From Acidobacteriota bacterium (GTDB lineage Bacteria > Acidobacteriota > Terriglobia > Terriglobales > Acidobacteriaceae), in the NCBI GenBank assembly GCA_019241535.1, contig JAFAWX010000327.1, positions 1 to 34,649 of the forward strand: a stretch of DNA of 34,649 nt, in the 5' to 3' direction. Made by a program: the position numbers and the translations under genes. Positions 504 to 23,604 of the stretch are shown here, one piece after another (within the stretch, counting starts at the first letter, position 1; each line of letters starts with the position of its first letter). A model generated the notes under the pieces. It was not told the origin of the DNA, ran no database searches, and saw nothing but the letters and a program-made list of their open reading frames with translations.

Positions 504-1055
504 TCATGGCTCGAGCTTTTCGCGGATCTCCTTGAGCGCCGACCAGCGTGGATCGTCGACTGCCTCCCTGCAGGTGCATTCTTCCAAGTTCAGGTTGCGA
601 CCGCAGTGGGAGCACAGCCCCTGGCAATCTTCCCGACAAATAGCCTTAAGCGGCAACGCCAGCAGGAGCTGTTCCCGCAATACGTCTTCGAGGAGCAGCC
701 CGCTGCCTTCATAATATCCAACTTCGGCTTCGACCGCCGTCACCGAGAGCTCTTCCCGGCCGGCATCGGCACCAAGCGGCCGGTAAAGCAGATCAAACTG
801 TTTCGCGACCTCCCGGGCGATCGGCTCAAGACAGCGGGCACAGGCTAGCTCAACCTTGGTTGAAAATCGCCCGGATAATCGTATGTCATTGATTACGTGG
901 TGCTTGCCATAGTGCTCCTGGACCAGCTGGGCGCGGCCGGAACTGGCCAGGTGAGCCGTTTGACGGACCTCACGACCGAAATCGATCACCCCGGGCGCGA
1001 TCTGCTCCTCGAACTCGAGCGCATGATCTTCCAATTCACGGATTTCAATGAGCAT
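504..1055 (-). CDS. DUF177/YceD-family protein
   Basis: 183 residues. The central region has the DUF177 hallmark ACARCLEPI. The C-terminal part carries a Cys cluster (C-x3-C-x3-C-x2-C, then C-T-C) that may bind zinc. In E. coli YceD is linked to 23S rRNA accumulation; the molecular role is unclear. The ATG at 1055 is preferred over the upstream start at 1157 because a CGGAGG ribosome-binding site stands 7 nt before it and the longer form would include the promoter. First gene of the inferred DUF177-rpmF-plsX operon. Confidence 0.9.
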   Translation of the reverse strand: MLIEIRELEDHALEFEEQIAPGVIDFGREVRQTAHLASSGRAQLVQEHYGKHHVINDIRLSGRFSTKVELACARCLEPIAREVAKQFDLLYRPLGADAGREELSVTAVEAEVGYYEGSGLLLEDVLREQLLLALPLKAICREDCQGLCSHCGRNLNLEECTCREAVDDPRWSALKEIREKLEP

Positions 1056-1127
1056 TTTGGACCTCCGCATCCGAACCGGTTCGAGCGGAAGCGACGGCAG
1101 GCGTAAGTACTCCTGGCAGCTAGAGTT

Positions 1128-1157
1128 AGGATAAAATCCGCTGAATAAGGGTGTCAA
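1128..1157 (-). promoter_or_regulatory. Sigma70-type promoter for the DUF177-rpmF-plsX operon
   Basis: Read on the minus strand, TTGACA (1157-1152) is followed by an 18-nt spacer and TATCCT (1133-1128). The -35 is perfect and the -10 matches four of six. It lies about 70 nt upstream of the DUF177 ATG, in the gap to the divergent glycosyltransferase gene. Confidence 0.6.
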
Positions 1158-1214
1158 GGATAGGGCCCGCGCTCGACTTCGCTCGCCCGAGAACTACGAA
1201 AACTTGGCGAATGG

Positions 1215-2873: not shown

Positions 2874-3715
2874 GACTCATTCAAGGCGCTGAAGAGATGC
2901 GAGGGTTATGCCGCGCGGCTAAAGCGCGTAGCGGACGCCTCGGCTTCGTACCCACCATGGGCGCCCTGCACGCGGGTCACCTGTCGCTCGTCCGGGCGGC
3001 GCGGGCGCAGTCAAGCGTGGTAGCGGCCTCGATTTTCGTGAATCCGGCCCAGTTCGGGCCGCGGGAAGACTACAGCCGCTACCCCCGGAACCTGGAGAGC
3101 GATTGCGCGCTTTTTGAAAACGAGGGCGTCGAACTGGTCTTTGCGCCCGAAGCCGGCGAGATGTACAGGGAAGATAGCGCCAGCTGGGTGCTAGTCGAGG
3201 GACTGAGCGAACGCCTATGCGGCCGCACACGGCCGGGACACTTCCGCGGGGTGGCCACGGTGGTTGCGAAACTGTTCCACATTGTCGAGCCCGATATTGC
3301 CTTTTTCGGCCAGAAGGATGCGGCGCAGGTGGCCATCGTCCGCCGGATGGTCCGCGATCTTAATTTTGCGCTAGCAATCGTGGTTTGTCCGATTGTGCGC
3401 GAACCGGACGGGTTGGCCCTGAGCTCGCGCAACGCCTACCTCGGTCCCGAGGAGCGCTACTCCGCGCCGGTCCTTTTCCGCTCGCTCGAGCGCGTGCGCC
3501 GACTTTTTGATGGCGGCGAGCGAAACTCCTCCGAGCTGATCCGCGCAGCCCGTGAGGAGTTCCTGGCCGAACCGGCGGTCCGCCTCGATTACCTCGAGGT
3601 AGTCGATCCCGACTCGCTCGAGCCCGAGCCGGAGATCAGGAAGAAGGCGCTGGTTGCGGTTGCCGCCCGAATCGGTAGCACCCGTTTGATCGACAATATC
3701 CTGCTCGAGCCCTGA
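2870..3715 (+). CDS. panC: Pantothenate synthetase
   Basis: 281 residues, the normal length. PanC joins pantoate and beta-alanine using ATP to make pantothenate, in coenzyme A synthesis. Visible family motifs are FVPTMGALHAGHLSLVR (with the HxGH nucleotide-binding signature), IFVNPAQFGPREDY, FGQKDAAQVAIVRRM and LALSSRNAYL (KMSKS-like loop). The ATG at 2870 overlaps the upstream stop as ATGA and gives the canonical N-terminus. A longer in-frame reading from 2666 only runs through the glycosyltransferase gene. No panB or panD lies in this window. Confidence 0.96.
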   Translation: MRLIQGAEEMRGLCRAAKARSGRLGFVPTMGALHAGHLSLVRAARAQSSVVAASIFVNPAQFGPREDYSRYPRNLESDCALFENEGVELVFAPEAGEMYREDSASWVLVEGLSERLCGRTRPGHFRGVATVVAKLFHIVEPDIAFFGQKDAAQVAIVRRMVRDLNFALAIVVCPIVREPDGLALSSRNAYLGPEERYSAPVLFRSLERVRRLFDGGERNSSELIRAAREEFLAEPAVRLDYLEVVDPDSLEPEPEIRKKALVAVAARIGSTRLIDNILLEP

Positions 3716-3720
3716 GGACC

Positions 3721-4293
3721 TTGCCGCCAGCCCCAGCCATCGTACTCGCCTCGGCTTCTCCCCGCCGCGAACAACTGCTGCGCGAGGCGGGGATTGAGTT
3801 TCTGGTCTGCCCGGCGCGAGTTCCGGAAATACCGGAAAGCGGTGAATCGGGCCGCGCCTTTGCCGAACGCATGGCCAACGAGAAGGCGCGAGCGGTTCGG
3901 CAGGCGATGCCCGAGCGCACGATCCTCGCTGCCGACACCGTCGTATGGCTTGACGACGAGCTGCTTTTGAAGCCCCAAGATGCAATCGATGCCGCGCGCA
4001 TGCTGCGCCTGCTCTCCGGCCGCCGCCACCTGGTCACAACCGGGGTGTGTCTTATCGGCGAGGGGTTTGAAGACGTGCGTTCAGAAACCAGTACGGTAGA
4101 ATTCGCGCCGTTGAGGAAAGAGGAGATTGACGGGTATGTTGAGAGCGGTGAACCCATGGACAAAGCCGGCGCCTACGCCATCCAGGGCGGGGCGGCGCGT
4201 TGGATTCTCGACCTCGAAGGCGACTACTCGAATGTGGTGGGACTTCCAGTGGGGCTGGTCAGGCGAATGCTGACCGAACACGGGATGCTGTGA
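3721..4293 (+). CDS. maf: Maf-family nucleotide pyrophosphatase
   Basis: 190 residues. The N-terminus has IVLASASPRREQLL, the Maf signature, then ILAADTVV with the catalytic Asp and EPMDKAGAYAIQG. Maf proteins hydrolyse non-canonical or modified NTPs (dTTP/UTP or m7GTP types) to monophosphates and have been tied to septum control. The start is TTG at 3721; no ATG or GTG is available before the conserved motif, and GAGGA lies very close (2 nt), so initiation may rely on coupling to panC, which ends 5 nt upstream. The 3' end faces tatA with only 3 nt between the stops. Confidence 0.92.
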   Translation: MPPAPAIVLASASPRREQLLREAGIEFLVCPARVPEIPESGESGRAFAERMANEKARAVRQAMPERTILAADTVVWLDDELLLKPQDAIDAARMLRLLSGRRHLVTTGVCLIGEGFEDVRSETSTVEFAPLRKEEIDGYVESGEPMDKAGAYAIQGGAARWILDLEGDYSNVVGLPVGLVRRMLTEHGML

Positions 4294-4296
4294 ATG

Positions 4297-4461
4297 CTAA
4301 GACTTCTTCTCGGGATCGCTCGCGCCATCTTTCATAGCGGATTTGAAATTGCGAATTCCCTCGCCCAGCCCCTTCCCGAGGGCGGCAAACTTGCTCGGGC
4401 CAAAAAGCAGAAGCGCGATGCCCACGATCAGCAGAATGTGCCAGGGTGAAAATAATTCCAT
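4297..4461 (-). CDS. tatA: Sec-independent translocase protein TatA/E
   Basis: A 54-residue protein. One N-terminal membrane helix (about residues 7-20) is followed by FGPSKFAALGKGLGEGIRNF, the classic TatA hinge and amphipathic helix, and a short charged tail DPEKKS. TatA multimers form the pore that exports folded proteins with twin-arginine signals. The start is backed by GGAGG 5 nt before the ATG. No tatB or tatC is nearby. The protein is shorter than E. coli TatA but within the range of TatA/E proteins. Confidence 0.93.
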   Translation of the reverse strand: MELFSPWHILLIVGIALLLFGPSKFAALGKGLGEGIRNFKSAMKDGASDPEKKS

Positions 4462-4498
4462 AAATCCCTCCGCTTGCGCAGGTCTCGGGAAGAAACCG

Positions 4499-4565
4499 TC
4501 AGGAGCGCCTTCTCGCCCCTAAATTACCGGCGCAGACGGTGCCCGCGGGCCTCCTGACAATTATA
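4499..4565 (-). promoter_or_regulatory. Candidate promoter -10 and structured leader of tatA
   Basis: A perfect TATAAT on the minus strand (4565-4560) lies 100 nt before the tatA start, but no good -35 sits at the usual distance. In the leader, GTCAGGAG (4499-4506) and CTCCTGAC (4551-4558) form perfect 8-bp arms, with a GC-rich 10-bp palindrome GCCCGCGGGC near the second arm. The leader could fold; no known riboswitch was recognised. Confidence 0.35.
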
Positions 4566-4587
4566 GCGGACCACAAGGGCGAGAGAC

Positions 4588-5436
4588 TCAAGATGGTCCG
4601 GCAGCCTTCTGCTTGAGAACCATCTTGCCGCGCTCGTCCCGCTCGAGGTAGCTCCAGGGAAGCCTGGGATCGTGCGTGAACATGGTCAGCCAGCCTTCGG
4701 GAATGGCGCGTGAATAGTAGCGCTTGCGACTCTCGATGGTTTCAAGCGGGTACAGATCGAAGGCCATGACCCAGTTGAGATCGAGATGAGCGCTGGTCGG
4801 AATCAGGTCGGAAATGTAGCAAGCGGTCTTGCCGCCGCTGCGAACGATGATTGCCTGCATGTCGCGGGTATGGCCGGAAAAGACTTCGAGCGAAATTCCC
4901 GGAACGATTTCCCGCGTACCGTCAACCAGCTCCATTCTCCCGCTCTCGACCAGCGAATCGTAGTTCTCGTGCAGATAGCTGATCGAGTCGCGCTGATTCT
5001 CGTGTGCGTGACGGAATTCGCCTTGCTGCACGTAGTAGCGGGCCCGGGGAAAGGTGGCTTTGAGCGCGCGGTTTTGTTTCACCGTGTTCCAGCCGCAGTG
5101 GTCGAAATGCAAATGCGAGTTGATGACCAGGTCGATATCCTCGGGTGATATCCCGGCGGCTTGGAGATTGTCGAGGAGCCTGGCGGGCTGCCCATAAATC
5201 TCCGCCATCTTCTCCGGAAGTTTATTGCCGATCCCGGTCTCGATCAGCAGAGTTTTCTCGCCCGTGCGAACCACAATCGAATTCAGCCCGGCGGTTACTC
5301 GGTTTTCCTCGTCAGAAGAAACCTTATTCGACCAAAGGGTCTTGGGAACTACGCCAAAGAAGGCTCCGCCATCAAGGGGGTAGGTACCGTCAGAGATCGC
5401 CGTCAGTTCAAAGTCACCGATGGTTAGGCGGTACAT
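4588..5436 (-). CDS. Metallo-beta-lactamase-fold hydrolase (lactonase-like)
   Basis: 282 residues. The zinc motif HLHFDHCG is at residues 108-115, with further ligands likely at H189 (SGHTRD) and D210 (YISD). The general layout resembles the AHL-lactonase/YtnP-like branch of the MBL superfamily, which opens lactones or hydrolyses esters; the substrate cannot be assigned. There is no signal peptide, so a cytoplasmic enzyme is expected. It is upstream of tatA on the same strand, separated by 126 nt that contain a possible tatA promoter, and divergent from the zinc-ribbon gene at 5551. Confidence 0.82.
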   Translation of the reverse strand: MYRLTIGDFELTAISDGTYPLDGGAFFGVVPKTLWSNKVSSDEENRVTAGLNSIVVRTGEKTLLIETGIGNKLPEKMAEIYGQPARLLDNLQAAGISPEDIDLVINSHLHFDHCGWNTVKQNRALKATFPRARYYVQQGEFRHAHENQRDSISYLHENYDSLVESGRMELVDGTREIVPGISLEVFSGHTRDMQAIIVRSGGKTACYISDLIPTSAHLDLNWVMAFDLYPLETIESRKRYYSRAIPEGWLTMFTHDPRLPWSYLERDERGKMVLKQKAAGPS

Positions 5437-5550
5437 GGTTTCCGGGGGCGGCCCTGCATGCCGGGGGCGCGCGCTTTGATTCTAGCGAAGCAGACGCCGA
5501 TGCGTCTCATTCCAGCATGGTAGAATATTGCTCAGGCAATCACTCTTCCG

Positions 5551-6666
5551 ATGTCCCCTGAAATTGAGAACTTGATCGCGCTTGAGCGAACGGAACAGGA
5601 GATCCAGCGCCTCAGGCAGGAAATTGCCGAACTGCCGAAGAGAGTCGCCGGCATTGAGCAGACGCTTGCGGGAACGCGGGCGGCACTGGAAGGCGCGCGG
5701 ACCGGGCTCAAAGCGGATGAAGCCGGACGCCGTAAGCATGAGACCGCGATCGTTGATCTCCGGCAAAAGATCTCCAAATACCGCGATCAGTCACTGGAAG
5801 TGAAAACCAACGAGCAGTACCGCGCGCTTCTCCACGAAATCCAGTTTACCGAACGACAAATCGCGGATTTCGAGGACCGTGTACTCGAGCTGATGGTGAG
5901 CGCCGATGGGCGGGAGAAGGAGATAAAGGTTGCCGAAGCCGATCTCAAGTTGCAGACCGCTGAGGTCGAGAAGGAGAAGGCCGCGGCCCGCGAACGCACG
6001 GCGCAGGACGAACGGGAGCTCGTCGAATGGAACGCGCGGCGCGAGACGGGGCGCTCGGCCATCGATGCTGATCTTTTGCGCCATTACGACCGGGTGCGCA
6101 AATTCCGCGGATCAGGCCTGGCCGAGGTACGCGATCGCAAATGCACCGGGTGCTCGGTGGTGCTCCGGCCGCAGATCGAAAATGACGTGCGCAGCGGCAA
6201 GCTGGCTTACTGCGATTCCTGCCAGCGAATCCTCTACTTCGACCCCTCGAAGGAGATTCCGGCCGAACCGGCGCCGGAAAAACCCTCCCGCCGGCGGCCC
6301 CGGCCGAAGCTCGATGCCAGTCAAGCCTGGTACTACCGCGAAGAGTACGGCCAGGAAGGAGAGGTCTTCGTAAGTTTCGCCAATGTGGACGGAATGGCCT
6401 CGCGGCGAATCTACGATGCCGCTACCGGCCGCAAACTGGGCGATACGCTGGTACGTGAAGGCGGCTATCGCCAGGCTTTTCCCGAGGACCTCACGAATGC
6501 CATCCGGCTGAATGGCAGCTGGAGCGACTCCGAGCAGGACGAGTGGGAAGGAGAGCTGCCAAGCACGGTGCTCGACGTCCTGCATCGCGATCTGGATCTG
6601 GCGCGTGCGGAAATGGCGGTTCGTGAACGCCAGGAGCAAGCCGCTCCCTCAACCGTGGCCAGCTGA
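5551..6666 (+). CDS. Coiled-coil protein with C4 zinc ribbon (zf-RING_7/DUF164 type) and extra C-terminal domain
   Basis: 371 residues. Residues 1-185 are a long Glu/Lys/Arg-rich helical hairpin, and a C4 zinc ribbon follows with C198-x2-C201 and C221-x2-C224. This is the organisation of the widespread DUF164 proteins, whose role is uncertain (possibly nucleic-acid binding). Those are usually about 240 residues. Here a proline-rich linker and about 130 further residues follow, with a WYYREEYGQEGEVFVSF stretch that I do not recognise. The ATG at 5551 has no clear Shine-Dalgarno. A hairpin at the stop codon may end the transcript. Confidence 0.82.
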   Translation: MSPEIENLIALERTEQEIQRLRQEIAELPKRVAGIEQTLAGTRAALEGARTGLKADEAGRRKHETAIVDLRQKISKYRDQSLEVKTNEQYRALLHEIQFTERQIADFEDRVLELMVSADGREKEIKVAEADLKLQTAEVEKEKAAARERTAQDERELVEWNARRETGRSAIDADLLRHYDRVRKFRGSGLAEVRDRKCTGCSVVLRPQIENDVRSGKLAYCDSCQRILYFDPSKEIPAEPAPEKPSRRRPRPKLDASQAWYYREEYGQEGEVFVSFANVDGMASRRIYDAATGRKLGDTLVREGGYRQAFPEDLTNAIRLNGSWSDSEQDEWEGELPSTVLDVLHRDLDLARAEMAVRERQEQAAPSTVAS

Positions 6667-11801: not shown

Positions 11802-12512
11802 TCAAGCGCGCTGTCTTGAGTCGGCAGCAGGCACGGCGCACGAACCGGCAAAATATTCGCGGTAGGACGCATACACGGCAAACATCGCGGGAACAAGCAC
11901 GATGGGCAGCCACCCGGCAGGGCGTCTGGCGGAGCCGAGGGAGGAGATCACCGCGCTTGCCAGGTAATAGGGGAATGACAGGAGAAAGATTCTGTGCCAG
12001 ATGGCGGCCATCGGCGCTCCCTCGGTGAGCGAGATTACGGCTGCCACCGGCACGGTTTGCGCAACGAGCACTGCTGCTGCCGCGGCTGCGGGAAGGAGAA
12101 TAGCGGGGATGACGATCCCCAGGGTTGGGACCCAGCGGAGCACGAGAGCGGCCAGGCCTACGGCCAACGCCATATTGCAGCAATTGAACAACAGTTGAAC
12201 AGGCTTGAGTTCCCTTCTCTCCCTCGGGAGTGACTGGGTCAGGGCGGAAGCGCAGGCAATGACCAGCGCTTCGAGCAGGCTCAATTTCGCAACTGCCAGT
12301 AGAATGACGGGTAGATTTACCGACATGTTGCCGTTGAGCCCCGGCAACTTCAGCTTCAGCCGGGAGGTCAGAAGGGCCGCCGTCAGGAAGCACAGGAATC
12401 CGGAGGGATAGAGAAAAGGCTGGTGTTCGAAGATGGCGTAGCCGGCGACGGCCGACCCGCCTGATGCGATCAGCGCGATGAAGAGCCGGGCTCGTCGCGG
12501 GGTCTCCTGCAT
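11802..12512 (-). CDS. Stand-alone integral membrane sensor-type (MASE-like) domain
   Basis: 236 residues, almost all membrane helices (about 6-7), with no output domain. It is clearly related to the N-terminal membrane domain of the HD-GYP/GGDEF protein at 16999. Both have an LPG-x2-G-x-MSVN motif, then ILL...L-x-E-x-LVI-C-x2-AL; in a hand alignment of residues 52-95 with residues 48-91 of that protein, 25 of 44 are identical. Further shared points are a TVPVAAVISLTE/TIPVSVIIALTE-type helix, FPYYL, AGW and a final Y-x-SY motif. AAGGGA 7 nt before the ATG supports the start. The gene is 77 nt downstream of the S8 protease on the same strand, so probably cotranscribed. It may be an antenna, partner or decoy for the full-length sensor; this is inference. 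Confidence 0.75.
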   Translation of the reverse strand: MQETPRRARLFIALIASGGSAVAGYAIFEHQPFLYPSGFLCFLTAALLTSRLKLKLPGLNGNMSVNLPVILLAVAKLSLLEALVIACASALTQSLPRERRELKPVQLLFNCCNMALAVGLAALVLRWVPTLGIVIPAILLPAAAAAAVLVAQTVPVAAVISLTEGAPMAAIWHRIFLLSFPYYLASAVISSLGSARRPAGWLPIVLVPAMFAVYASYREYFAGSCAVPAADSRQRA

Positions 12513-12589: not shown

Positions 12590-14422
12590 CTAGTTATCGC
12601 CATTGGTTGCGATATTCATGGCGTCGGATTGGGTTTGCGAGCCCCAGACCACGCTTGATCCCCAAACCACGCTGTAGCCCTGGTCGGTGCTGTCCCCCCA
12701 GGTCGCCGTACTACCCCAGACGACGGAGTTGCCGTTTACGCTGCTGTTCGGAACAAGCACGCTGCTTCCCCAGACGACAGAGTTGGCCCAGTTGGAGGAG
12801 CTCCCCCATACCACCGAGGAGCCGTCGACCATGTACACGTTGCCCGAGGAAGAATCGGTGGTGACGGTCGGTGAGAGCGCGCTCCCGGCCGAAGGGGGCG
12901 CCATGTCGTTGCTGTTGAGCGAGGCCGCGACATCCACGTAGCCGGCGCCCACGGTGAAAATATCGTACTGGTCGGTGTACGTGGCGCCGGTCGCAGGATC
13001 GGTGTAGGAACTGCTGGTGGGGAAAGTCTTGTAGGCGGTCTTCATCAGGCGCGCCTTGATCTGGTCGGGCGTAAGGTACGGGTTCTGCTGAAGCAGCAGC
13101 GCCGCAGCGCCGCTGACCATGGGAGCGGCCATGCTGGTGCCGCTCAAGCGGTAATAATAAGGCGAGTCGGACGTGTACCCATTGCGGTAATAGCTCTGGG
13201 GAACGGCGGTCTGAGGATACTCGGTGTAAAGCGTCGCATTCGTCGACGACAAAAGAGAAACCACCAGGTTGCCGGGAGCAACCAGGTCCGGCTTCACCAC
13301 GTGATCAAGCATTGTAGGCCCCTTAGAGCTATAGGTGGCGATCAGGTCGTCGGAGCGATTCGGCGTGCCCATGGTCTTCATTGCGCCCACGGTGATCACA
13401 TAAGGATCGTTGGCTGGGGAGGTGATGGTGCCGTAGCCGTGAGTGTTGTTCGAGTTGTCGCGCCCGTAATTGCCTGCGGCGACCACGACGGTGATGCCCG
13501 ATTTCCAGGCCGCCTCGACAGCCCGGCAAAGCGGATCTTGAGTGTAGCTTTCGGATATCGGCCGACCGAGCGAGAGATTGATAATGCGAATGTTGTAAGT
13601 ATCTTTCAGGTCGACGGCCTGCTCGATGGCGGCAATGACGGCGCTATCGGTGCCCGAGCCGTTCTGATCGAGCACTCTCAGATTGACCAGGCTCGCGTTT
13701 GGCGCGATGCCGCGCATCGTCCGGAAGCAGTTCGCGCACGACGAGGAAGCTGCATTGCCGGCAACGATGCCGGCCACATGGTCGCCGTGACCGTACAGGT
13801 CATTGGTGCTGCTGCTGTCATTCACGAAACTGCGGCTCAACAGGACGCGCGACGCTCCATTGGAATTCCTGAGGTCCCGCACGACGGTGATGCCGCTATC
13901 GATGATGGCCACGGTTACGCCCCTCCCGTCGTAGCCCGAGCTCCAGGCCGTATTGGCCCCGATGGCCGCCGCTGCGTTATCCAGGGCCCCGGCCACGGCG
14001 CGATCCGGCGAGATGTAGGCAATCAACGGGTCGGCCTTCAAGAGCGAGAGAATATTGCCGGCCGGGATGGAATAAAGGGCCGCGTTTATCACCCCCAGAT
14101 TCTCGAGGAGAACGGCGCCGCTCGCCTGCGCGAGGAGGCCATTCAGCTGAGTCGGCGCCTGCTGATACTGCACAATGACATTCACCGAGAAGTTGCCGTC
14201 GGTTGGCTTGACCGGCCCCAGCAAGCCGGACGGCAGGCCTGTGGACTGCGCACCGGTGCCGGCCGCAATGATCCCGAGAAGGTCGGGCGACAGCATCGAG
14301 GACTGCGCGAAGCCGAGGCTCGCGCTCATGAGCGTGGCCCACGCCGCCAGGCGCAGAACTCCCCGCCGAGCTCTCCGTGCGATGGCTTCGGCCGTCGTTA
14401 CCTTTCTCATACTCTTACTCAT
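12590..14422 (-). CDS. Secreted S8 (subtilisin-family) serine protease with C-terminal SVVWGS hexapeptide array
   Basis: 610 residues. A long basic N-terminus and hydrophobic stretch form a signal peptide ending near GFA-QS (about residue 39). A propeptide-like region covers about 77-140. The catalytic domain has Asp175 (VAIIDSG), His215 (GHGDHVAG), oxyanion Asn318 (AAGN) and Ser430 (LSGTSMAAP), so the triad is intact. C229 and C232 are close together in a loop after the His. Residues 536-595 are ten tandem six-residue units. The ATG at 14422 has GGGGGA 6 nt upstream; a reading from 14446 adds eight residues without support. A sigma54-type promoter and palindromes lie just upstream, and the sigma54 activator gene is the upstream neighbour. 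Substrate unknown. Confidence 0.9.
   Translation of the reverse strand: MSKSMRKVTTAEAIARRARRGVLRLAAWATLMSASLGFAQSSMLSPDLLGIIAAGTGAQSTGLPSGLLGPVKPTDGNFSVNVIVQYQQAPTQLNGLLAQASGAVLLENLGVINAALYSIPAGNILSLLKADPLIAYISPDRAVAGALDNAAAAIGANTAWSSGYDGRGVTVAIIDSGITVVRDLRNSNGASRVLLSRSFVNDSSSTNDLYGHGDHVAGIVAGNAASSSCANCFRTMRGIAPNASLVNLRVLDQNGSGTDSAVIAAIEQAVDLKDTYNIRIINLSLGRPISESYTQDPLCRAVEAAWKSGITVVVAAGNYGRDNSNNTHGYGTITSPANDPYVITVGAMKTMGTPNRSDDLIATYSSKGPTMLDHVVKPDLVAPGNLVVSLLSSTNATLYTEYPQTAVPQSYYRNGYTSDSPYYYRLSGTSMAAPMVSGAAALLLQQNPYLTPDQIKARLMKTAYKTFPTSSSYTDPATGATYTDQYDIFTVGAGYVDVAASLNSNDMAPPSAGSALSPTVTTDSSSGNVYMVDGSSVVWGSSSNWANSVVWGSSVLVPNSSVNGNSVVWGSTATWGDSTDQGYSVVWGSSVVWGSQTQSDAMNIATNGDN
12638..12817 (-). 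repeat. In-frame array of ten SVVWGS-type hexapeptide units
   Basis: Residues 536-595 of the protease divide without gaps into units SVVWGS, SSNWAN, SVVWGS, SVLVPN, SSVNGN, SVVWGS, TATWGD, STDQGY, SVVWGS, SVVWGS. Five are exact. Position 1 is Ser or Thr in all ten, position 5 is Gly in eight. A unit in phase (YMVDGS) may precede. Strict six-residue periodicity suggests a beta-solenoid or a repeated binding or anchoring module. Confidence 0.88.
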
Positions 14423-14467
14423 GTTCGGTCCCCCATTACGTAACAACGCAGTCGATAGCTTGGGCTA

Positions 14468-14743: not shown

Positions 14744-16519
14744 CTAGCGATCTTCGGGGCCGGCATCTGCTTTCATCTTGCGGGCTGTCCATTGGCGGAG
14801 TTGTTGATGAAACGCGGGCTGGAGGACTACAAAGCGCGCGCCGGCGCGCCCTGCGGCATCTATCCAGACGATCCGTATCTTCGCCTGGATGAGGGTCTCG
14901 CTTTCGGGCAAAACGAAGCTGGCATCCAGAACTCCGCCAAAACGCGCGGAACTGGTCAGCCCCTCGAGACCCAAGCCGCCGGTGCTGAGATTCACTCCCG
15001 TCACTCTGGTCTCCTCGCCCTCGGCATTCTTGAGGCTGAGCTCAAAACTCGCCTTAGCCCGGAAGCACTGCTGCTGTTCCACCCCGATAAAGCCGGGCGC
15101 TCGCGTGCGCTCGTTGTCTCTGCAGGTGATGTTGTACTGGCGCATCTTACGGCTCAGGGTGCGGCGCGAAATTCCGAGTTGTTCGGCCGCTAAGCCCCGA
15201 TGTCCTCCGGTGTTCGCGAGCGCCTGGATGATCATCTGCTCCTCCATGCCCTCGAGATTGGTGACGGGCAGCTCGGATGTGTTTTGGTTTTTCTGAGCGC
15301 AAGCGGAAATCTCGGCGGGCAAGTCTTCGGCGCGGACCTCGGAACCGTTTGCCGACATGGCGAACTTCACGACCACATTGCGAAGCTGACGGACGTTCCC
15401 CGGCCAGCGGTAAGATACGAGCGCCCTCAGCGCTTCCGGGCTGAAGGCTAAACCGCTGTTCTTCAGGGCCAGAAAGTGCGCGGCGAGCGCGGCGACGTCT
15501 TCCGACCGCTCCCGCAGGGGAGGCACTCGCAGCTCGAACTGGGCCAGGCGATGGTAAAGATCTCCGCGGAACCGGCCTTCCTCGACCCGACGCTCGAGGT
15601 CCTGGTTAGTGGCGGCGACGACGCGCACATCCACCGTGATTTTGCGATGGCCGCCCAGCCGGTAGTAGGAGGAACCGTCGAGCACGCGGAGCAGCTTGAC
15701 CTGCAGCTTGGGGTCGAGCTCGCCGATTTCGTCGAGAAACAGCGTGCCCTTGGCGGCCAGTTCGAACAGGCCCGGTTTGGACGAATCGGCTCCACTGAAG
15801 GCCCCTTTCTCATAGCCGAACAGCTCGCTCTCCACCAGGTTTTCGGGCAAGGCAGCGCAGTTGATGTCCACCCAGGGTCCGCTGCGCCGCGGGGAATTGT
15901 CATGAATACTGCGGGCGATCAGTTCCTTGCCGCTGCCGGTTTCGCCCGTGATTAGGACGATCTCGGGTTCAAGAGCCACCCGGTCTGCCATAGCCATGAA
16001 CCGGTGCATGACTGGACTGGCGATCAAAAACTTCGTTCCGCTGATTTCGCGTTCGACCGGAAGCATCTCGTGGGGCACCTGACCGGTATGACTGCCGGCT
16101 TCCTGGCGCAACTCGGCTACTTCGGCGACGGATTCGGCGGTTTTCTGCCCCCTGATGTCAATCAGAAATCCCGCCATTCCCGCAGCAATTGAGTTCTCAT
16201 CGCCCACCCGTACGAGGCAAAGGTGGACGTCGATCTCCCTGCCGGACTTCGTCCGGGAGCGGAGTTCTCCGAGATAATGGCCCCTTTCAAGCACCTGCCG
16301 AATGACTGAGTCGCGCACGAACGCCTGCTCCTCATCGGGGCACAAAAAAGCGACGGTTTTGCCCAACAGCTCTTGCCCCACGTATCCGTACATGCGAAGC
16401 GCGGCCTGATTGGCGCCGGTGATTTTGCCCTCAAGATCGGTGGCGATCACTCCCGCATGGAACCGGTCGAGAATGCGCGCCATGGACAGGTCTTCGAAGA
16501 CAAGTGTTGCACTGGCCAT
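14744..16519 (-). CDS. Sigma54-dependent transcriptional activator: PAS, AAA+, Fis-type HTH, PilZ-like
   Basis: 591 residues. A PAS domain (about 12-125) is followed by the sigma54-interaction AAA+ module with Walker A GETGSGKE (192-199), the sigma54-contact loop as GAFSGA (239-244, usually GAFTGA) and Walker B TLFLDEI (D263-E264). A Fis-type HTH is at about 424-463 ([19 protein letters not shown]). After it comes a PilZ-like domain (about 483-582) with NLSTGG at 510-515. The first Arg of the PilZ RxxxR motif is replaced (Q483, R487 kept), so cyclic-di-GMP binding is doubtful. AGAGAGG 5 nt before the ATG at 16519 supports this start over a TTG at 16615. There is no receiver domain; input is probably through PAS. 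Upstream neighbour of the protease. Confidence 0.9.
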
Positions 16520-16715
16520 ATCGCCTCTCTGGTGGATCGTAGCCGGCCGGGAGAGTGCAGGACGTGGCGTACCAAGTCCTGTGGCCGGGCGTGGAACTCT
16601 CTGCCGAATAGACAATCTGATACCAGGGCGCCGACTTTAACCAGCGCAACTGTGTTTCACGGATAACGGCCGTAATAGCCGGCCGGTTACCTCGAACTCG
16701 GCAGCCCGGACTTGG

Positions 16716-16998: not shown

Positions 16999-19464
16999 AT
17001 GCCTACACGAGCGAAAGCATGCATCGCAGTAACCGCCGCCGCCGGCGTCCTTGTCCTCTGCGTAGCGCTCTGGAACTGGCATTCCGACAATCTGCTCCGC
17101 TTCTCCTGCTATTTGGCAATTGCCGTCCTCGGGTCAAGTCTCAAGGTGCAGCTACCGGGGATTGACGGTACCATGTCGGTGAATTACCTCTTCATCCTCC
17201 TCGGCGTCCTCGAACTAACGCTGCCCGAGACCCTGGTAATCGGCTGTAGTGCTGCCCTGGTACAGTGCCTGTGGCGCAGCCGCCAGGCTCCCGACCCGGC
17301 CAAAATCGCTTTTAACGTCTTCGGCATGATGGCGAATGCCATCGCTCTTTCTTATTTCACCTACCACCGTTTCCAATCCATTCTGGGCAATGAGTCCTTG
17401 CTGCTGGTCTCGGCGGCGCTGACTTTTTTCGTGGCCAATACCATTCCCGTCTCCGTGATCATTGCGCTGACGGAAAACAAGTCCTGCAGCAAGATCTGGT
17501 CGGAATGTTATTTCTGGACGTTTCCCTATTACCTGGTGGGCGCAGCCGTCATCGGGGTCGTGGGTTTCATGAACCGGCATGCCGGCTGGCAGACATCCCT
17601 TCTGGTGCTGCCGGTAATTTACTGGGTTTACCGCTCTTACCAGCTGTATCTGCGGCGTCTTGAAGACGAGAAGAAACGTGTGGAGATCGAAAAGCGGCAC
17701 GTCGAAGATATAGCCGGGCTGCACATGCGCACCATTGAGGCCCTGGCCCTGGCCATCGACGCCAAGGATCAGACCACGCACAAGCATCTTGAGCGGGTAC
17801 GAACCTATGCCGCCGAAATCGCCAAGGAGCTGAAGCTGCCCGACGACGAGCTGGAGGCTCTGCGCGCCGCGGCGCTGCTGCACGATGTTGGAAAGCTGGC
17901 TGTGCCCGAACACATCATCAATAAGCCCGGGCCGCTGACCCCGGAAGAGTTCGAGAAGATGAAGATCCATCCGGTCATCGGCGCAGAGATACTGGAACGG
18001 GTCGCCTTCCCCTATCCTGTCGCTCCGATTGTGCGGGCACACCATGAGAGGTGGGATGGCTCAGGCTACCCCGAAGGGCTCGCAGGAGAAGCCATTCCCG
18101 TAGGTGCGCGGGTTCTCGCGGTGGTCGACTGCTTGGATGCGCTCGCCAGCGACCGACATTACCGGGAAGCGCTGCCTCTTGATGAGGCCATGGCGGAAGT
18201 GGTCAAGATGTCAGGAACCGCCTTCGATCCCAAGGTCGTGGATATCGTAAAGCGGCGCTATGTCGAGCTCGAACAGCTGGCCCAATCACAATCGGTGAGG
18301 GTCGCTACGCCCGGTCTTTCGACCAACATTCCCATCCGAAAAAGCGTGGCGCCGGCGGCCGGCTTTGAACAAAGAACCGCCGCCGGGGCGCGCAGCGGCG
18401 AAAGCGACTTCCTGGCATCGATAGCCTCGGCGCGCCAGGAAGCGCAGACGCTCTTTGAGCTTAGTCAAGACCTCGGAAACTCGCTCAGCCTGGGAGAAAC
18501 CCTATCGGTTTTGTCCATGCGATTGCGCAAAGTGATTCCCTATAACTCGATTGCGGTCTATGTGTGCCGGGAGCGGCGACTGGTCCCGGAACTGGTGGCG
18601 GGGGACAACTACCGGGTCCTCTCCTCGCTCACCATTCCGCTGGGCGAAGGATTATGCGGCTGGGTAGCGGAAAATCGCAAACCCATCGTCAACGGAAACC
18701 CGCTGGTCGAGTGGGGCTATGCGAGCGACCCGGGGCGATCAATCACGCTGCGCTCGGCAATCGCGGTACCTCTTGAAGGATTGAACGGGGTAGTCGGGGT
18801 GCTTGCCATGTACCATGCAGAACGCGACGCCTTCAGCGGCGACCATCTGCGCATCCTGCTGGCCATAAGCTCCAAAGTCGCGCTCTCGGTCGAAAACGCC
18901 CTCAAGTACCAGCAGGCCGAAAATTCCGCCACCACCGACTATCTGACCGGGCTGCCCAATGCGCGCTCTCTGTTCGTGCATCTCGCCCAGGAACTGGCGC
19001 GCTGCCGGCGAACGGGCAGCAGCCTGGCGGTAATGGTCTGCGATCTGGACGGCTTCAAACAGGTCAATGACCGTTATGGCCATCGCGAGGGCGACAACCT
19101 GCTGCGCGCCTTTGCCGCAGACCTCAAGGGTGTATGCCGGGAATACGACTATGTGGCGCGCATGGGCGGAGACGAGTTCGTGGTGATCGCGCCCGGTATG
19201 AAGCCGGACGGCGTCGGCGACAAGGCCAACCGCCTGAACCAGCTTGCGATCGAGGCGGGAAGGCGGATTTGCGGCAAGGATCTCATCTCTCTCAGCGTCG
19301 GCATGGCATTTTGTCCCGACAGTGGGTTTGACGTCGAGCAACTGCTGGCCGAGGCCGATCGCAAGATGTACACCATGAAGCAAAGGCACCATGCGCTGGC
19401 GACAGGCGGCGAGGATAGAGAAGAGTCCAAAGCACGCTGGACCACGGTCAGTCAGAAAGTGTGA
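16999..19464 (+). CDS. Membrane sensor with HD-GYP, GAF and GGDEF domains
   Basis: 821 residues. The N-terminal membrane domain (about 10-215; 6-7 helices) matches the stand-alone protein at 11802-12512. A coiled coil leads to HD-GYP (about 238-425) with LLHDVGK (H295-D296) and HHERWDGSGYP (348-358), all key residues present. A GAF domain (about 480-635) precedes GGDEF (about 645-800) with an intact GGDEF (723-727) and an inhibition-site RxxD (R714-D717) five residues upstream. It could both make cyclic-di-GMP and break it down; which activity dominates cannot be told. It is divergent from the activator-protease-membrane genes and 12 nt ahead of an ABC transporter. No strong ribosome-binding site is visible. 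Confidence 0.93.
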   Translation: MPTRAKACIAVTAAAGVLVLCVALWNWHSDNLLRFSCYLAIAVLGSSLKVQLPGIDGTMSVNYLFILLGVLELTLPETLVIGCSAALVQCLWRSRQAPDPAKIAFNVFGMMANAIALSYFTYHRFQSILGNESLLLVSAALTFFVANTIPVSVIIALTENKSCSKIWSECYFWTFPYYLVGAAVIGVVGFMNRHAGWQTSLLVLPVIYWVYRSYQLYLRRLEDEKKRVEIEKRHVEDIAGLHMRTIEALALAIDAKDQTTHKHLERVRTYAAEIAKELKLPDDELEALRAAALLHDVGKLAVPEHIINKPGPLTPEEFEKMKIHPVIGAEILERVAFPYPVAPIVRAHHERWDGSGYPEGLAGEAIPVGARVLAVVDCLDALASDRHYREALPLDEAMAEVVKMSGTAFDPKVVDIVKRRYVELEQLAQSQSVRVATPGLSTNIPIRKSVAPAAGFEQRTAAGARSGESDFLASIASARQEAQTLFELSQDLGNSLSLGETLSVLSMRLRKVIPYNSIAVYVCRERRLVPELVAGDNYRVLSSLTIPLGEGLCGWVAENRKPIVNGNPLVEWGYASDPGRSITLRSAIAVPLEGLNGVVGVLAMYHAERDAFSGDHLRILLAISSKVALSVENALKYQQAENSATTDYLTGLPNARSLFVHLAQELARCRRTGSSLAVMVCDLDGFKQVNDRYGHREGDNLLRAFAADLKGVCREYDYVARMGGDEFVVIAPGMKPDGVGDKANRLNQLAIEAGRRICGKDLISLSVGMAFCPDSGFDVEQLLAEADRKMYTMKQRHHALATGGEDREESKARWTTVSQKV

Positions 19465-19476
19465 CGTTTCAACCCA

Positions 19477-20340
19477 ATGAGGCGGAAAATTGCGAGGCAC
19501 TTGATCGCCATAACGGCAACGGTCCTCCTCGGCGGACTTGTCTCAGCCGTACTGGTCCGAATTTCTCCCGGTTTCGCCATCGATGAAAACCAGCTCGATC
19601 CCCGTCTGAACGCGGAAAGCCTGCGCGCTCTCCGCGCCTCCCACTCATCGGAAGCCAACATATTGCGCTTCTATGCGGGCTATATGAACCGGGCAGTTCA
19701 CGGCGATCTCGGCATCTCCCATTCGCTTGGCCAGCCCGTCGGCAGGCTGCTACGGGATCGCGTTCCGGTGACCGGGAGGTTGGCGGCCGGCGGCCTGGCG
19801 CTCGCCTGGACCTTCGCCTTCGGCCTGGCTGCGGCACTGGCTGCAGTGCGCATTAGCACCTGCGATGTGCTGGCAATTGTCTTGAGCGGGATCTTGCTGT
19901 GCCTTCCCGCGGCCGTGATGGCTTTGCTATCGGTCCTCTGGAACGCTCCTGCCTCTCTCGCAGTCGCCTTAATCGTCTTCCCCCGAGTCTTCACCTACTC
20001 CCGCAACCTGCTTCTGAACTCTTATTCCTTGCCGCACATCGTTACCGCCAGAGCCAAGGGATTGAGCAAACTGCGCACTCTGTTTTGGCACGTGCTGCCG
20101 TCCTGCGCACCGTCCCTTGTTGCCGTGGGCGGGATCTCGGTCAACATTGCCTTGAGTGCGGCCATTCCCGTGGAAGCGCTATGCGGAGTCGCGGGTGTCG
20201 GCAGCCTGGCGTGGCAGGCGGCAATGGCACGGGATCTGCCGCTGCTCGTGAACGTCACGGTTCTGGTTACGCTTGTTACCTTGTTGTCCGACGCCGGCGC
20301 GGATGTAATCGGTTATGTGCTAAGTACGCGGGAGAACTGA
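19477..20340 (+). CDS. Oligopeptide-type ABC transporter permease (DppB/OppB family)
   Basis: 287 residues: an N-terminal helix, a short periplasmic part with RFYAGYMNRAVHGDLGISHSL (the typical GDLG-S signature of DppB-type permeases), then about five more helices. The EAA-like loop reads IVTARAKGLSKLRTLFWHVLP with the conserved ARAKGL. It is somewhat short for DppB (usually over 300 residues). It forms the membrane channel of a peptide or nickel-type importer with the next gene's product. It begins 12 nt after the HD-GYP gene, so cotranscription is likely, and is followed after 2 nt by the second permease. Confidence 0.87.
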   Translation: MRRKIARHLIAITATVLLGGLVSAVLVRISPGFAIDENQLDPRLNAESLRALRASHSSEANILRFYAGYMNRAVHGDLGISHSLGQPVGRLLRDRVPVTGRLAAGGLALAWTFAFGLAAALAAVRISTCDVLAIVLSGILLCLPAAVMALLSVLWNAPASLAVALIVFPRVFTYSRNLLLNSYSLPHIVTARAKGLSKLRTLFWHVLPSCAPSLVAVGGISVNIALSAAIPVEALCGVAGVGSLAWQAAMARDLPLLVNVTVLVTLVTLLSDAGADVIGYVLSTREN

Positions 20341-20342
20341 CC

Positions 20343-21143
20343 GTGCCGAGGAAGCTTGCCTGCCTGGTTCTCGCGTTGGTTACGGCCGCTTCGCTTGCCG
20401 CCAGCTGGCTGGCGCCGGCCGGCTACGCCACTCAGTTCCGCGAAGCTCCGAACGCGCCGCCCTCTCGCCGGCATTTGCTTGGCACTGACCAGGTTGGCCG
20501 TGACCTTTTCTCCCGCACCCTATACGGGACTCGTATCTCGCTGCTGCTTGCGCCGGCGGCGGCTCTCGTCGCCACCACCCTGGCTGCGGGCATCGGAGGA
20601 GTTGCCGGATTCCTGGGGGGTGTCCCGGAACGAGTAGCCATGAGCCTTACCAATCTTTTTCTCTCTCTTCCATGGCTTTTCCTGCTGATAACAATCCGCG
20701 CCTTACTGCCTCTCAATGCTTCTCCGTTGGCTTCGGTCCTGGCCACGTTCTTGATGCTCGGGCTGCTCGGGTGGGCTGCTTCCGCACGCGTGCTATGCGC
20801 CGGCGCCCGGGCATTGCGCACTTCCGAACTCCTGCTGCAGGCGCGCGCCTTGGGCCTCCATGGCCCGCGGCTGTTCGCAGTCCATGTGATTTCCAATCTG
20901 AAGCCGGTTCTTTATGCGCAGTTCTGGATTTCTATACCCACATTCATTCTGAGCGAAGCGAATCTAGGCATTCTGGGGCTCGGCGTGCCCGAGCCAATGC
21001 CCTCCTGGGGCACTCTCTTGAAGGAACTCGAGGGCGTGACCTCGCTCACCGAGCAGCCGTGGAAGCTTGCGCCTCTGCTTGTTTTGATCGTCGTAGTCAC
21101 TTCATTTCAGCTCGCTCTCTCCCGCCAGGAGGTGCCTCTCTGA
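20343..21143 (+). CDS. Oligopeptide-type ABC transporter permease (DppC/OppC family)
   Basis: 266 residues from GTG at 20343, 2 nt after the previous stop. The N-terminal part has RRHLLGTDQVGRDLFSRTLYG, the hallmark of DppC-type permeases (HxLGTDxxGRDxxSR), followed by five to six helices. The EAA-like loop includes LLQARALGLHGPRLFAVHV, and LGLGVPEPMPSWGTLL near the C-terminus is also typical. In-frame upstream starts (from 19899) only overlap the first permease gene. The stop codon TGA at 21141 overlaps the CTG start of the binding-protein gene. Confidence 0.9.
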   Translation: MPRKLACLVLALVTAASLAASWLAPAGYATQFREAPNAPPSRRHLLGTDQVGRDLFSRTLYGTRISLLLAPAAALVATTLAAGIGGVAGFLGGVPERVAMSLTNLFLSLPWLFLLITIRALLPLNASPLASVLATFLMLGLLGWAASARVLCAGARALRTSELLLQARALGLHGPRLFAVHVISNLKPVLYAQFWISIPTFILSEANLGILGLGVPEPMPSWGTLLKELEGVTSLTEQPWKLAPLLVLIVVVTSFQLALSRQEVPL

Positions 21144-22774
21144 TCGGCCGCCGCGTTCGTCTCCTTTATTCGTTGGTTTTCATTGTGCTTTCAAGCTCAG
21201 CATTGGCCGAGTCCGGCTCCGAACTGCGCTTCTGTCTCCACTCCGAACCAAAGACGTTCAATCCTTTACTGGTGGCCGACGATGCGGCGGAGACTATCCG
21301 CTATCTCACCGGTGGCGTCCTGGTGCGTGTAAATCGGCAGACCCAGGAACTGGAACCGGAGCTGGCTCTCTCCTGGAAGGTGTCGAAGGACGGCCGGGAG
21401 GTTACTTTCAAGCTGCGTAAAGGACTCTCCTTCTCCGACGGCACTCCCTTCTCCGCTGACGACGTTGCCTACACGATGCGCTTGCTGATGGATCCCGAGC
21501 TCCACTCGCCCACCGGGGATGCCTTCCGTTCCGGGAGCGGAGCGGTGCGCTCCGAGGTTTTCGCCCCCGATCGCGTTTCAATTACCTTTCCGGCAACCGT
21601 GGCCGGTCTTGACCGGCTCTTTGACCAGGTGGCAATCCTCTCCGCACACTCTCCTAAAAAAGAGATGGCGGTCTTGGGACCTTTTATGATCGCCGATTAC
21701 AAGCCGGGAAGCACGGTGCTGCTGAAGCGCAATCCCAACTACTGGAAGACGGATTCGCATGGTCGGCGTCTCCCTTATCTCGACTCCATTCGTCTGGACA
21801 TTCAGCCCAATCGCGACATCGAGCTGGTCCGTTTCAAGCGCGGTGAACTCGACCTGATCAACTCCCTCGACAGCGAGTACTTCGATCGTGTCGACGCCAC
21901 CTCGCCCGGCCTGGTACATGACGCCGGGCCTTCGCTCGATTCCGAACAAATGTGGTTCAACCAGGTGGCGGCTGCGCCCCTGCCGCCCTACGAGCGCGAG
22001 TGGTTCCGTTCGACCAATTTCCGCCGGGCTATATCTCAGGCCATCAACCGCGAGGATCTCAGCCGGATTGTTTTCAACGGCCACGCCCGTCCGGCGCTCG
22101 GCCCCGTCTCGCCCGCCAATAAATTCTGGTACAACTCCAGGATGAAGGCCGATGCCTTCGGCCGCGACGCCTCGCTTGCCAGGCTGGCAGTCGAGGGCTT
22201 TCGCCTCCAAGATGGCATCCTGCGAGACGAAAGCGGCCACCGCGTCGAGTTCTCGATCATTACCAACTCTGGCAACAAGTACCGCGAGCGGATGGCTATC
22301 CTGATTCAACACGACCTTGAGGAAATCGGGATCAAGGTAAACATCGTCACTTTGGACTTTCCCTCGCTGATTGAGCGCATCACCCACAGCTTTAATTACG
22401 AAGCTGCACTGCTGGGCTTTACCAACGTCGATCTCGATCCCAATACGCAGATGAATGTCTGGCTGAGTTCAGCGGAAAACCACCAATGGAACCCGCGCGA
22501 GAAATCGCCGGAGACTTCCTGGGAAGCTGAAATCGACAAGCTCATGCGCGCCCAGGCTTCGTCGCGAGACCCGGGCAAGAGAAAAGAGAGCTTCGACCGG
22601 GTGCAGGAAATTGTCGTCGAGCAGATGCCATTCATTTACCTGGTCAACCGGGACTCCCTGTCGGCAATTTCTGCCTCCCTGCAGGGGACCGTACCAGTAA
22701 TTCTTCGTCCGCAAACCTATTGGAATGCCGATCGCCTGACCGTGTCTGCGGAGGCAGGAACGAGAGGCCGATGA
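21140..22774 (+). CDS. Peptide-type ABC transporter substrate-binding protein (SBP family 5), probable CTG start
   Basis: 544 residues if translation begins at CTG 21140. The family-5 binding-protein body is clear: LRFCLHSEPKTFNPLL, then LALSWKVSKDGREVTFKLR, LSFSDGTPFSADDVAYTMR and NPNYWK. A good signal peptide (IGRRVRLLYSLVFIVLSSSALA, cleavage before Glu) begins right at this codon. No ATG, GTG or TTG lies between the upstream stop region and the signal peptide at a suitable place; TTG at 21173 would cut into the hydrophobic core. AGGAGG (21127-21132) is 7 nt before the CTG, and CTGA overlaps the stop of the permease gene, like the common ATGA overlap. It delivers an oligopeptide-like ligand to the permeases. 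Confidence 0.88.
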   Translation: MIGRRVRLLYSLVFIVLSSSALAESGSELRFCLHSEPKTFNPLLVADDAAETIRYLTGGVLVRVNRQTQELEPELALSWKVSKDGREVTFKLRKGLSFSDGTPFSADDVAYTMRLLMDPELHSPTGDAFRSGSGAVRSEVFAPDRVSITFPATVAGLDRLFDQVAILSAHSPKKEMAVLGPFMIADYKPGSTVLLKRNPNYWKTDSHGRRLPYLDSIRLDIQPNRDIELVRFKRGELDLINSLDSEYFDRVDATSPGLVHDAGPSLDSEQMWFNQVAAAPLPPYEREWFRSTNFRRAISQAINREDLSRIVFNGHARPALGPVSPANKFWYNSRMKADAFGRDASLARLAVEGFRLQDGILRDESGHRVEFSIITNSGNKYRERMAILIQHDLEEIGIKVNIVTLDFPSLIERITHSFNYEAALLGFTNVDLDPNTQMNVWLSSAENHQWNPREKSPETSWEAEIDKLMRAQASSRDPGKRKESFDRVQEIVVEQMPFIYLVNRDSLSAISASLQGTVPVILRPQTYWNADRLTVSAEAGTRGR

Positions 22775-23604
22775 TCGCAGCCCCGGAGCCCTTGCTCTCC
22801 CTGCGCCTGTCGGTTGATTATCCGCAAAAGGCCCGCGTGCTGCGCGACGTCCGTCTGGAGATCGGGCAGGGGGAAATCGTCGGGCTTGTCGGACAAAGCG
22901 GCTCCGGCAAGAGCACTCTGGCACTGGCGATCCTCGGGCTGCTCGAAATGAAAGACGGCAAGGCGCAAGGCGCCATCCGCTTTCGCGGCACCGACCTGCT
23001 CCGGCTGAGTGAACGTGAGATGCGCACCCTTCGCGGCAGCGCGATCGGGCTGGTATTGCAGAGCCCGCTCTCTTCGCTCAATCCCGCGCTGAAAATTCGC
23101 ACCCAGCTGAAAGAAGCCTGGAAGGCCCACCGTAAAGGGACGCGCGACGAGTGTGCCGGAGCGATTCGAAACGCTCTCGCCAGCGTGAGCCTGCCGGTCG
23201 AGGATGAATTTCAGAAACGCTACCCGTCGCAGCTGAGCGTCGGCCAAGCGCAACGGGTGCTGATTGCCATGGCAGTGTTGCATCGTCCCGCTCTGCTTGT
23301 CACCGACGAGGCCACCAGCGCCCTCGATGTCATCACGCAATCGGAGATCCTCGCATTGTTCGCCCGTCTTAAGGAAGAGAGCGGCATGAGCATTCTCTAT
23401 ATCTCCCATGATCTGCCTTCTGTGGCCGGCATTTCCCACCGAACCGCGATTTTGCACGAAGGAGAAATCGTCGAGTGCGCGCCCACGGATCAGATCTTCA
23501 AGCGGCCCAGCCATCCCTATACGCAGCGACTCATTGCCTCACTGCCAGAGGTACCGGCGGGGGGAACGCTCCCCATCGTTAAGACCACAGCGGCTACGCG
23601 GTAA
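22771..23604 (+). CDS. Peptide-type ABC transporter ATPase (DppD/OppD family)
   Basis: 277 residues; the ATG overlaps the binding-protein stop (ATGA). Walker A is GQSGSGKST (41-49), the Q-loop is Q97, the signature is LSVGQ (155-159; LSGGQ in most), Walker B LLVTDE (D179-E180) and the H-loop ISHD (H213). The C-terminal part has the oligopeptide-family HPYTQRLIASLPEVP. Most such importers have two different ATPases (D and F); only one is here and the next gene is convergent. It may work as a homodimer, or its partner is encoded elsewhere. Confidence 0.92.
   Translation: MIAAPEPLLSLRLSVDYPQKARVLRDVRLEIGQGEIVGLVGQSGSGKSTLALAILGLLEMKDGKAQGAIRFRGTDLLRLSEREMRTLRGSAIGLVLQSPLSSLNPALKIRTQLKEAWKAHRKGTRDECAGAIRNALASVSLPVEDEFQKRYPSQLSVGQAQRVLIAMAVLHRPALLVTDEATSALDVITQSEILALFARLKEESGMSILYISHDLPSVAGISHRTAILHEGEIVECAPTDQIFKRPSHPYTQRLIASLPEVPAGGTLPIVKTTAATR

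Follow-up and report, generated by a model that had tools for sequence, protein, structure and literature searches.

Organization of the protease locus

The window analyzed in this work, i.e. the whole stretch of DNA under study, comprises 34,649 nt from an Acidobacteriota bacterium (Terriglobia; Terriglobales; Acidobacteriaceae) and corresponds to positions 1-34,649 of the forward strand of contig JAFAWX010000327.1 (assembly GCA_019241535.1). An ORF on its minus strand (12590..14446) encodes a 618-aa putative secreted S8 subtilase (Pfam Peptidase_S8, 3.5e-54), with a TTG start at position 14446 and an in-frame ATG at residue 9. The N-terminal residues 1-47 (14306..14446) read as a signal-peptide-like segment, basic and then hydrophobic, that closes with SASLGFAQ, and they precede a propeptide-like alpha/beta domain of the AlphaFold2 model (residues ~87-153; 13988..14188) whose top structural matches were pro-subtilisins, e.g. 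ProN-Tk-SP (3afg) and pro-subtilisin E (3whi). The catalytic domain (13016..13927), assigned by Pfam, AlphaFold2 and motifs, matched Peptidase_S8 (PF00082) over residues 174-477 with 184.5 bits (cut-off 21.8). The Asp183-His220-Ser438 triad and the oxyanion residue Asn326 were all found in the expected motifs (GHGDHVAG for His220 and GTSMAAP for Ser438), and by these residues the protein is predicted to be a catalytically complete subtilase. Within the GHGDHVAG motif (residues 219-226; 13769-13792, minus strand) Asp replaces the usual Thr. An assignment to the type VII mycosins (TIGR03921) was discarded, the score of 150.6 bits lying below the NCBIfam cut-off of 278.75.

A short beta hairpin of the AlphaFold2 model (residues ~527-540; 12827..12868, minus strand), at which a GxVYLV-type motif is conserved in relatives, joins the catalytic domain to a C-terminal tail that carries ten hexads (residues 544-603; 12638..12817, minus strand) and, over the 15 residues that remain after them (12593..12637, minus strand), runs to a terminal NGDN. 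The ending G-[E/D]-[N/K/Q] is frequent in relatives, and G[ED] was present within the last five residues in 38 of 50 close relatives. With the subtilisin-like S8 proteases (PF00082; pro-Tk-SP, pro-subtilisin E) the window protease has in common the catalytic fold, the catalytic residues and the propeptide-like domain, but it adds this tail, which lies outside all of its Pfam and NCBIfam matches.

At 77 bp downstream of the protease gene, and on the same strand, a gene (11802..12512) encodes a 236-aa multi-span membrane protein that consists of a solo MASE9-like domain. Its score against MASE9 (PF20972) was 20.9 bits, just under the Pfam cut-off of 24.3, which is exceeded by homologous partners at other loci (31.7 bits in L043, 25.7 in L173 and 25.0 in L061). 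A second MASE9-like membrane domain, fused to HD-GYP, GAF and GGDEF domains, is encoded on the plus strand (16999..19464), and these two were the only MASE9-like genes detected in the genome of the window, both flanking this protease. Between the protease gene and the MASE9-HD-GYP-GGDEF gene, upstream of the former, lies a gene for a PAS-sigma-54 activator-HTH_8-PilZ regulator (14744..16615, minus strand). Some other tail proteases (L002, L005, L007 and L030) also have a homologue of this regulator as a neighbour, AAA activators being common generally. Directly after the MASE9-HD-GYP-GGDEF gene, translations on the plus strand (19477-23604) read as peptide ABC importer-like genes (two permeases, a binding protein and an ATPase), through which peptides freed by the protease might be taken up. 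Farther away, a minus-strand gene (28262-29806) encodes a protein that joins PilZ and SPOR domains, a combination that was unfamiliar to us. No match to Rfam was obtained in the window, and promoter and terminator scans gave hits at chance level only.

A hexad array conserved at the peptide level

The translated array consists of ten gap-free units in the order SVVWGS, SSNWAN, SVVWGS, SVLVPN, SSVNGN, SVVWGS, TATWGD, STDQGY, SVVWGS and SVVWGS. The original prediction of a strict period of six over 60 residues with five exact SVVWGS units was borne out, exactly at positions 12638-12817, whereas the accompanying statement that Ser1 and Gly5 are kept even in degenerate units holds for most of them: Ser1 is present in nine units (Thr in unit 7) and Gly5 in eight (Ala in unit 2, Pro in unit 4), with Trp4 in seven. 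Along the 60 residues, 22 of 54 positions were identical at lag 6, a value that was not reached in any of 100,000 composition-preserving shuffles (maximum 20). Tandem Repeats Finder detected no DNA repeat at the array, and the five exact units, compared pairwise, have only 10-15 of 18 bases alike and use serine codons of both the TCN and the AGY type. Because exact copies differ in synonymous codons, it is the peptide that is conserved, and not a recent DNA duplication that is observed, which argues for a repeat that would be old at the DNA level and selected at the peptide level. The periodicity beyond all shuffles and the identical peptide encoded by differing codons also agree with the earlier view that the array is not random low complexity.

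Trp-Gly tails occur on S8 proteases of Acidobacteriota

When a profile of the tail alone was used to search 396 sampled Acidobacteriota genomes, arrays of the x-Phi-Phi-W-G-[DNST] type ending S8 proteases were found in 87 of them. Close homologues carried a hexad tail wherever the C-terminus was readable (e.g. SAVWGT, SVVWGN, NALWGS and SVLWGD), arrays of 18 RIIWGD, 16 TLVWGD and 20 GALWGD units were all located at the C-terminus of S8 proteases, and the same location was observed in about 20 more ORFs from multi-copy genomes. Among the arrays examined in Acidobacteriota, none was seen on a non-S8 protein. The suspicion that similar tails exist on other acidobacterial proteases was thus correct, and the profile search that had been suggested for the hexad unit gave S8 proteases as the only carriers among these acidobacterial arrays.

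A pattern of four W-G hexads was also scanned against 84,980 species genomes. Most of the matches listed were chance frames within simple DNA repeats, and those not on S8 proteases look like readings of this kind. Every listed in-frame array whose upstream frame was readable belonged to an S8 protease, and nearly all came from Acidobacteriota. In three other phyla the profile detected no tailed S8 protease among about 850 genomes (251 from the Chloroflexi phylum, 296 from the actinobacterial phylum and 299 from the pseudomonad phylum), and its matches outside Acidobacteriota were not S8 proteases. The only apparent exception was a GGFWGD-tailed S8 protease (L154, 1-1404, plus strand) on a MAG contig whose title names Anaerolinea thermophila (Chloroflexi), which may represent a transfer, a binning error or a true exception. 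The sequence L157, titled Acidimicrobiia, was discounted as a carrier outside Acidobacteriota, since its genome has four tail proteases and lacks a WhiB gene, and the title is probably wrong. A plasmid search gave partial S8 relatives only, none of them covering 80% of the query. Pfam, NCBIfam and the literature searched provided no name for the tail and nothing relevant on the motif or on repeats of acidobacterial subtilases, and repeats are not mentioned for SBcas3.3, a serine protease from a soil metagenome. Taken together, these searches showed that the tail is S8-only and almost phylum-restricted in its distribution.

The number of units per tail ranged from about five to more than thirty. 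In a set of 808 units, position 1 was S/N/G/T, position 2 A/V/I, position 3 V/L/I and position 6 D/S/N/T, with Gly5 at a frequency of 0.90, the Trp frequency of 1.00 resulting from how the units were picked. Units are homotypic within one protein, with identities of 0.69-0.82 at the variable positions versus the 0.22-0.28 expected from the pool, and often with distinct codons for every copy. Two tail-protease genes (G012:C108 and G012:C29) were broken by stop codons and are apparently decaying paralogues.

Linkage of tail proteases and MASE9-like genes

A search of the flanks with the genes of the window revealed that homologues of the 236-aa protein, or its domain as in the 16999-19464 protein, recur beside tail proteases. 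A MASE9-domain search built on an alignment of 29 such domains was combined with the tail search in the 396 Acidobacteriota genomes, many of which are drafts: 79 had both, 8 the tail only, 50 the MASE domain only and 259 neither, a co-occurrence (Fisher 6e-39) that is uncorrected for phylogeny and in which the genomes are not independent. Two contrasts within a taxon serve as the one control for phylogeny: in the family of the window, tail and MASE9 coincide in nine genomes and are both missing from the others listed, and in genus g27 the tail and MASE9 were both found only in G285 and G394. Among 41 relatives, MASE9 was present in 10 of the 10 tail genomes versus 3 of the 31 others. In these ten tail-bearing relatives a hand count placed 17 of 24 MASE9 genes less than 3 kb from a tail protease and, conversely, a MASE9 gene within 3 kb of 16 of 26 tail proteases versus none of eight tail-less S8 matches; the 10 of 26 tail proteases with no MASE9 gene within 3 kb include some at contig ends and two broken ones. 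At the scale of the phylum, at least 28 of 98 MASE9 genes listed in tail genomes were near a listed tail versus about 0.25 expected, and this adjacency is a lower bound because both searches list best matches only. Moreover, in 20 of 26 close pairs the partner was on the same strand, directly downstream and at less than 500 bp. These results established, at the level of gene order and gene content, a genetic pairing of the tail protease and the MASE9-like gene.

The partners vary in what follows the membrane domain, i.e. HD-GYP-GAF-GGDEF, PAS-GGDEF, HisKA-HATPase, PAS-kinase-receiver or no output domain, while the S8 tail and the MASE9 domain are retained. No conserved Cys, His or Asp was found in 29 MASE9-like domains (best column frequencies 0.34, 0.38 and 0.41), and a sorting partner of the exosortase/rhombosortase type, with its catalytic Cys, His or Asp, was discarded on these grounds.

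In 37 adjacent pairs, the divergence of the unit sequence correlated with that of the MASE9 domain once catalytic divergence was removed (partial Mantel, r 0.25, p 0.002), a modest signal of a kind of test that may be inflated by phylogeny. The same partial r of 0.25 (p 0.014) was obtained in 24 close pairs, r was 0.03 and not significant in 13 distant pairs, and the correlation between unit and catalytic domain given MASE9 was weaker (0.13, p 0.06, 37 pairs). Ala occupied position 2 of the unit in 6 of 7 divergent MASE9-HD-GYP pairs versus 1 of 15 solo pairs (Fisher 6e-4, classes assigned by hand). Paralogue descent is a confounder of the relation between unit type and partner type, and both covariation results may come in part from it.

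Structure of the tail and irregular relatives

With 34 sequences, AlphaFold2 gave a good model of the propeptide and of the catalytic domain (pTM 0.81) and showed no confident fold in the tail, where the pLDDT was about 25 (23-34). A relative with a perfect 17-unit array, predicted with ten aligned arrays, gave a pLDDT of 31 and a pTM of 0.18. Such failed predictions neither prove disorder nor speak decisively against a triangular beta-helix fold. Profiles of the tails matched left-handed beta-helix acyltransferases weakly (LpxD 3eh0, E 0.037), and Hexapep (PF00132) matched 2 of 21 tails (best 4.8e-5).

Irregular tails came to light when 20 regions around MASE9 genes were read, the majority from genomes in which the tail profile had detected no or few tails. 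In 12 of the regions an adjacent S8 protease had Phi-Phi-W-G motifs in its tail, of the GLIWG or GAIWGG type and usually irregularly spaced, not gap-free hexads, so that several of the genomes counted as MASE only do have an S8 protease with such motifs beside the MASE9 gene. A gap-free GIAWSD array was present on an S8 protease beside MASE9 in L269. In L263, a MASE9-like gene adjoins a pair of neighbouring S8 proteases (3638-5701 and 879-2660, minus strand), of which the former ends in an irregular Phi-Phi-W-G tail and the latter has an interrupted frame and masked bases nearby. Judged from these homologues, the strict period of six is a special case within a wider class of Phi-Phi-W-G motif tails. 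The loss of periodicity in homologues, foreseen as a blow to the original prediction, was encountered in part, as the motif copies persist and the strict period does not.

Discussion

The linkage and co-occurrence with MASE9 suggest that the tail docks the protease to the MASE9 protein or signals through it. According to this proposal, the protease would be exported, its propeptide would probably be auto-processed, and the tail, as a multivalent short motif (polar residue, two aliphatics, Trp, Gly and a small or acidic residue), would be a docking element or ligand for the adjacent MASE9 protein, either holding the protease at the cytoplasmic membrane or serving for its recognition there. A solo MASE9 partner would serve to localise the protease or to stabilise it, and the MASE9-HD-GYP/GGDEF or MASE9-kinase forms would convert the condition of the protease, or of its tail, into a c-di-GMP or phosphorelay output or, in the alternative direction, c-di-GMP or kinase outputs would gate proteolysis. 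Where the partner has such modules, the pair would tie extracellular proteolysis to intracellular signalling. We infer the physical contact, the export and the direction of signalling, and the linkage of the genes could reflect shared regulation without contact. A meeting of the tail with the periplasmic face of MASE9 would depend on the membrane topology. Protease and membrane sensor probably work as one protease-and-sensor unit, and a functional pairing with the tail as contact element, the contact being deduced from linkage, is put forward with middling confidence.

The MASE9 partners resemble known MASE domains of c-di-GMP enzymes (MASE9, PF20972; MASE1) in that a membrane domain is fused to GGDEF, HD-GYP or kinase modules, as MASE1 is the membrane domain of the c-di-GMP enzyme DgcE of E. 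coli (PMC6510439), but here the domain also occurs as a solo protein and is linked to a secreted, repeat-tailed protease. The logic of the proposed unit has its nearest precedent in LapD-LapG, in which an inner-membrane c-di-GMP protein controls an extracytoplasmic protease (PMC3032545, PMC3032553). The likeness is one of analogy and not of membership, the protease of the window being an S8 serine protease and its partners MASE9-like proteins, either MASE9-HD-GYP/GGDEF, MASE9-kinase or solo. LapG, in contrast, belongs to the cysteine proteases, and LapD has a HAMP-GGDEF-EAL architecture.

The original prediction left the choice between a structural solenoid and a multivalent binding or anchoring tail. 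A left-handed beta helix or similar beta solenoid, serving to stabilise the protease or to build stacked fibrils, would account for the strict period in many members, for the weak LpxD and Hexapep matches and for homotypic units, as expected of stacked ladders. The tail also resembles the Hexapep/LpxD helix in its small/polar-aliphatic pattern with Gly, but it has Trp at the usual aliphatic position, the window tail gave no Hexapep match, and unit numbers from about five to more than thirty fit such a fold poorly. As the spacing is irregular in homologues and AlphaFold2 yielded no fold for either tail, the solenoid is weakened and a multivalent linear-motif tail is favoured; we consider a rigid solenoid quite unlikely.

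A multivalent tail could instead be an anchor to the cell surface or matrix, or an export or retention signal, that binds lipid, peptidoglycan, glycan or another protein, with the MASE9 neighbour merely co-regulating expression. Its constant position at the very C-terminal end of an enzyme that looks exported, its hydrophobic and Trp-rich character, the G-[E/D]-[N/K/Q] end of close relatives and the nearby MASE9-HD-GYP/GGDEF and PilZ regulators, which suggest c-di-GMP control of surface functions, are in agreement with such a role. However, it leaves unexplained the frequent solo MASE9 partner without output domain and the covariation of unit and partner, and no conserved Cys, His or Asp points to a sortase-like enzyme among the MASE9-like proteins, so that we regard an anchor as a rather doubtful alternative. 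An array of multi-copy peptide signals, like tandem pheromone precursors, from which the protease frees identical short peptides sensed by the MASE9 receptor, would explain why units are alike within a protein and unlike between paralogues despite synonymous change, why a receptor-like partner with varied output domains adjoins, and why unit and partner covary. Nevertheless, the units are not separated by a conserved processing site, many of those in the window protein are degenerate, and the irregular tails of relatives would yield no uniform peptide, all of which makes this explanation very unlikely.

Returning to the protease-and-sensor pairing, a broader formulation, in which the subtilase tail is the cognate ligand or a releasable multi-copy peptide signal for MASE9 receptors with exchangeable outputs in a largely Acidobacteriota-specific module, is offered tentatively and as improbable on balance; if true, it would give the MASE9 domain a proteinaceous ligand. 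Few inputs have been assigned to the widespread MASE-type membrane sensors, and the pairing described here suggests a concrete input, the protease or its tail, as well as a function for a tail family unnamed in the databases searched. By this pairing, a family of such sensors is genetically tied to one class of secreted protease, marked by its repeat tail, across Acidobacteriota, an abundant soil phylum.
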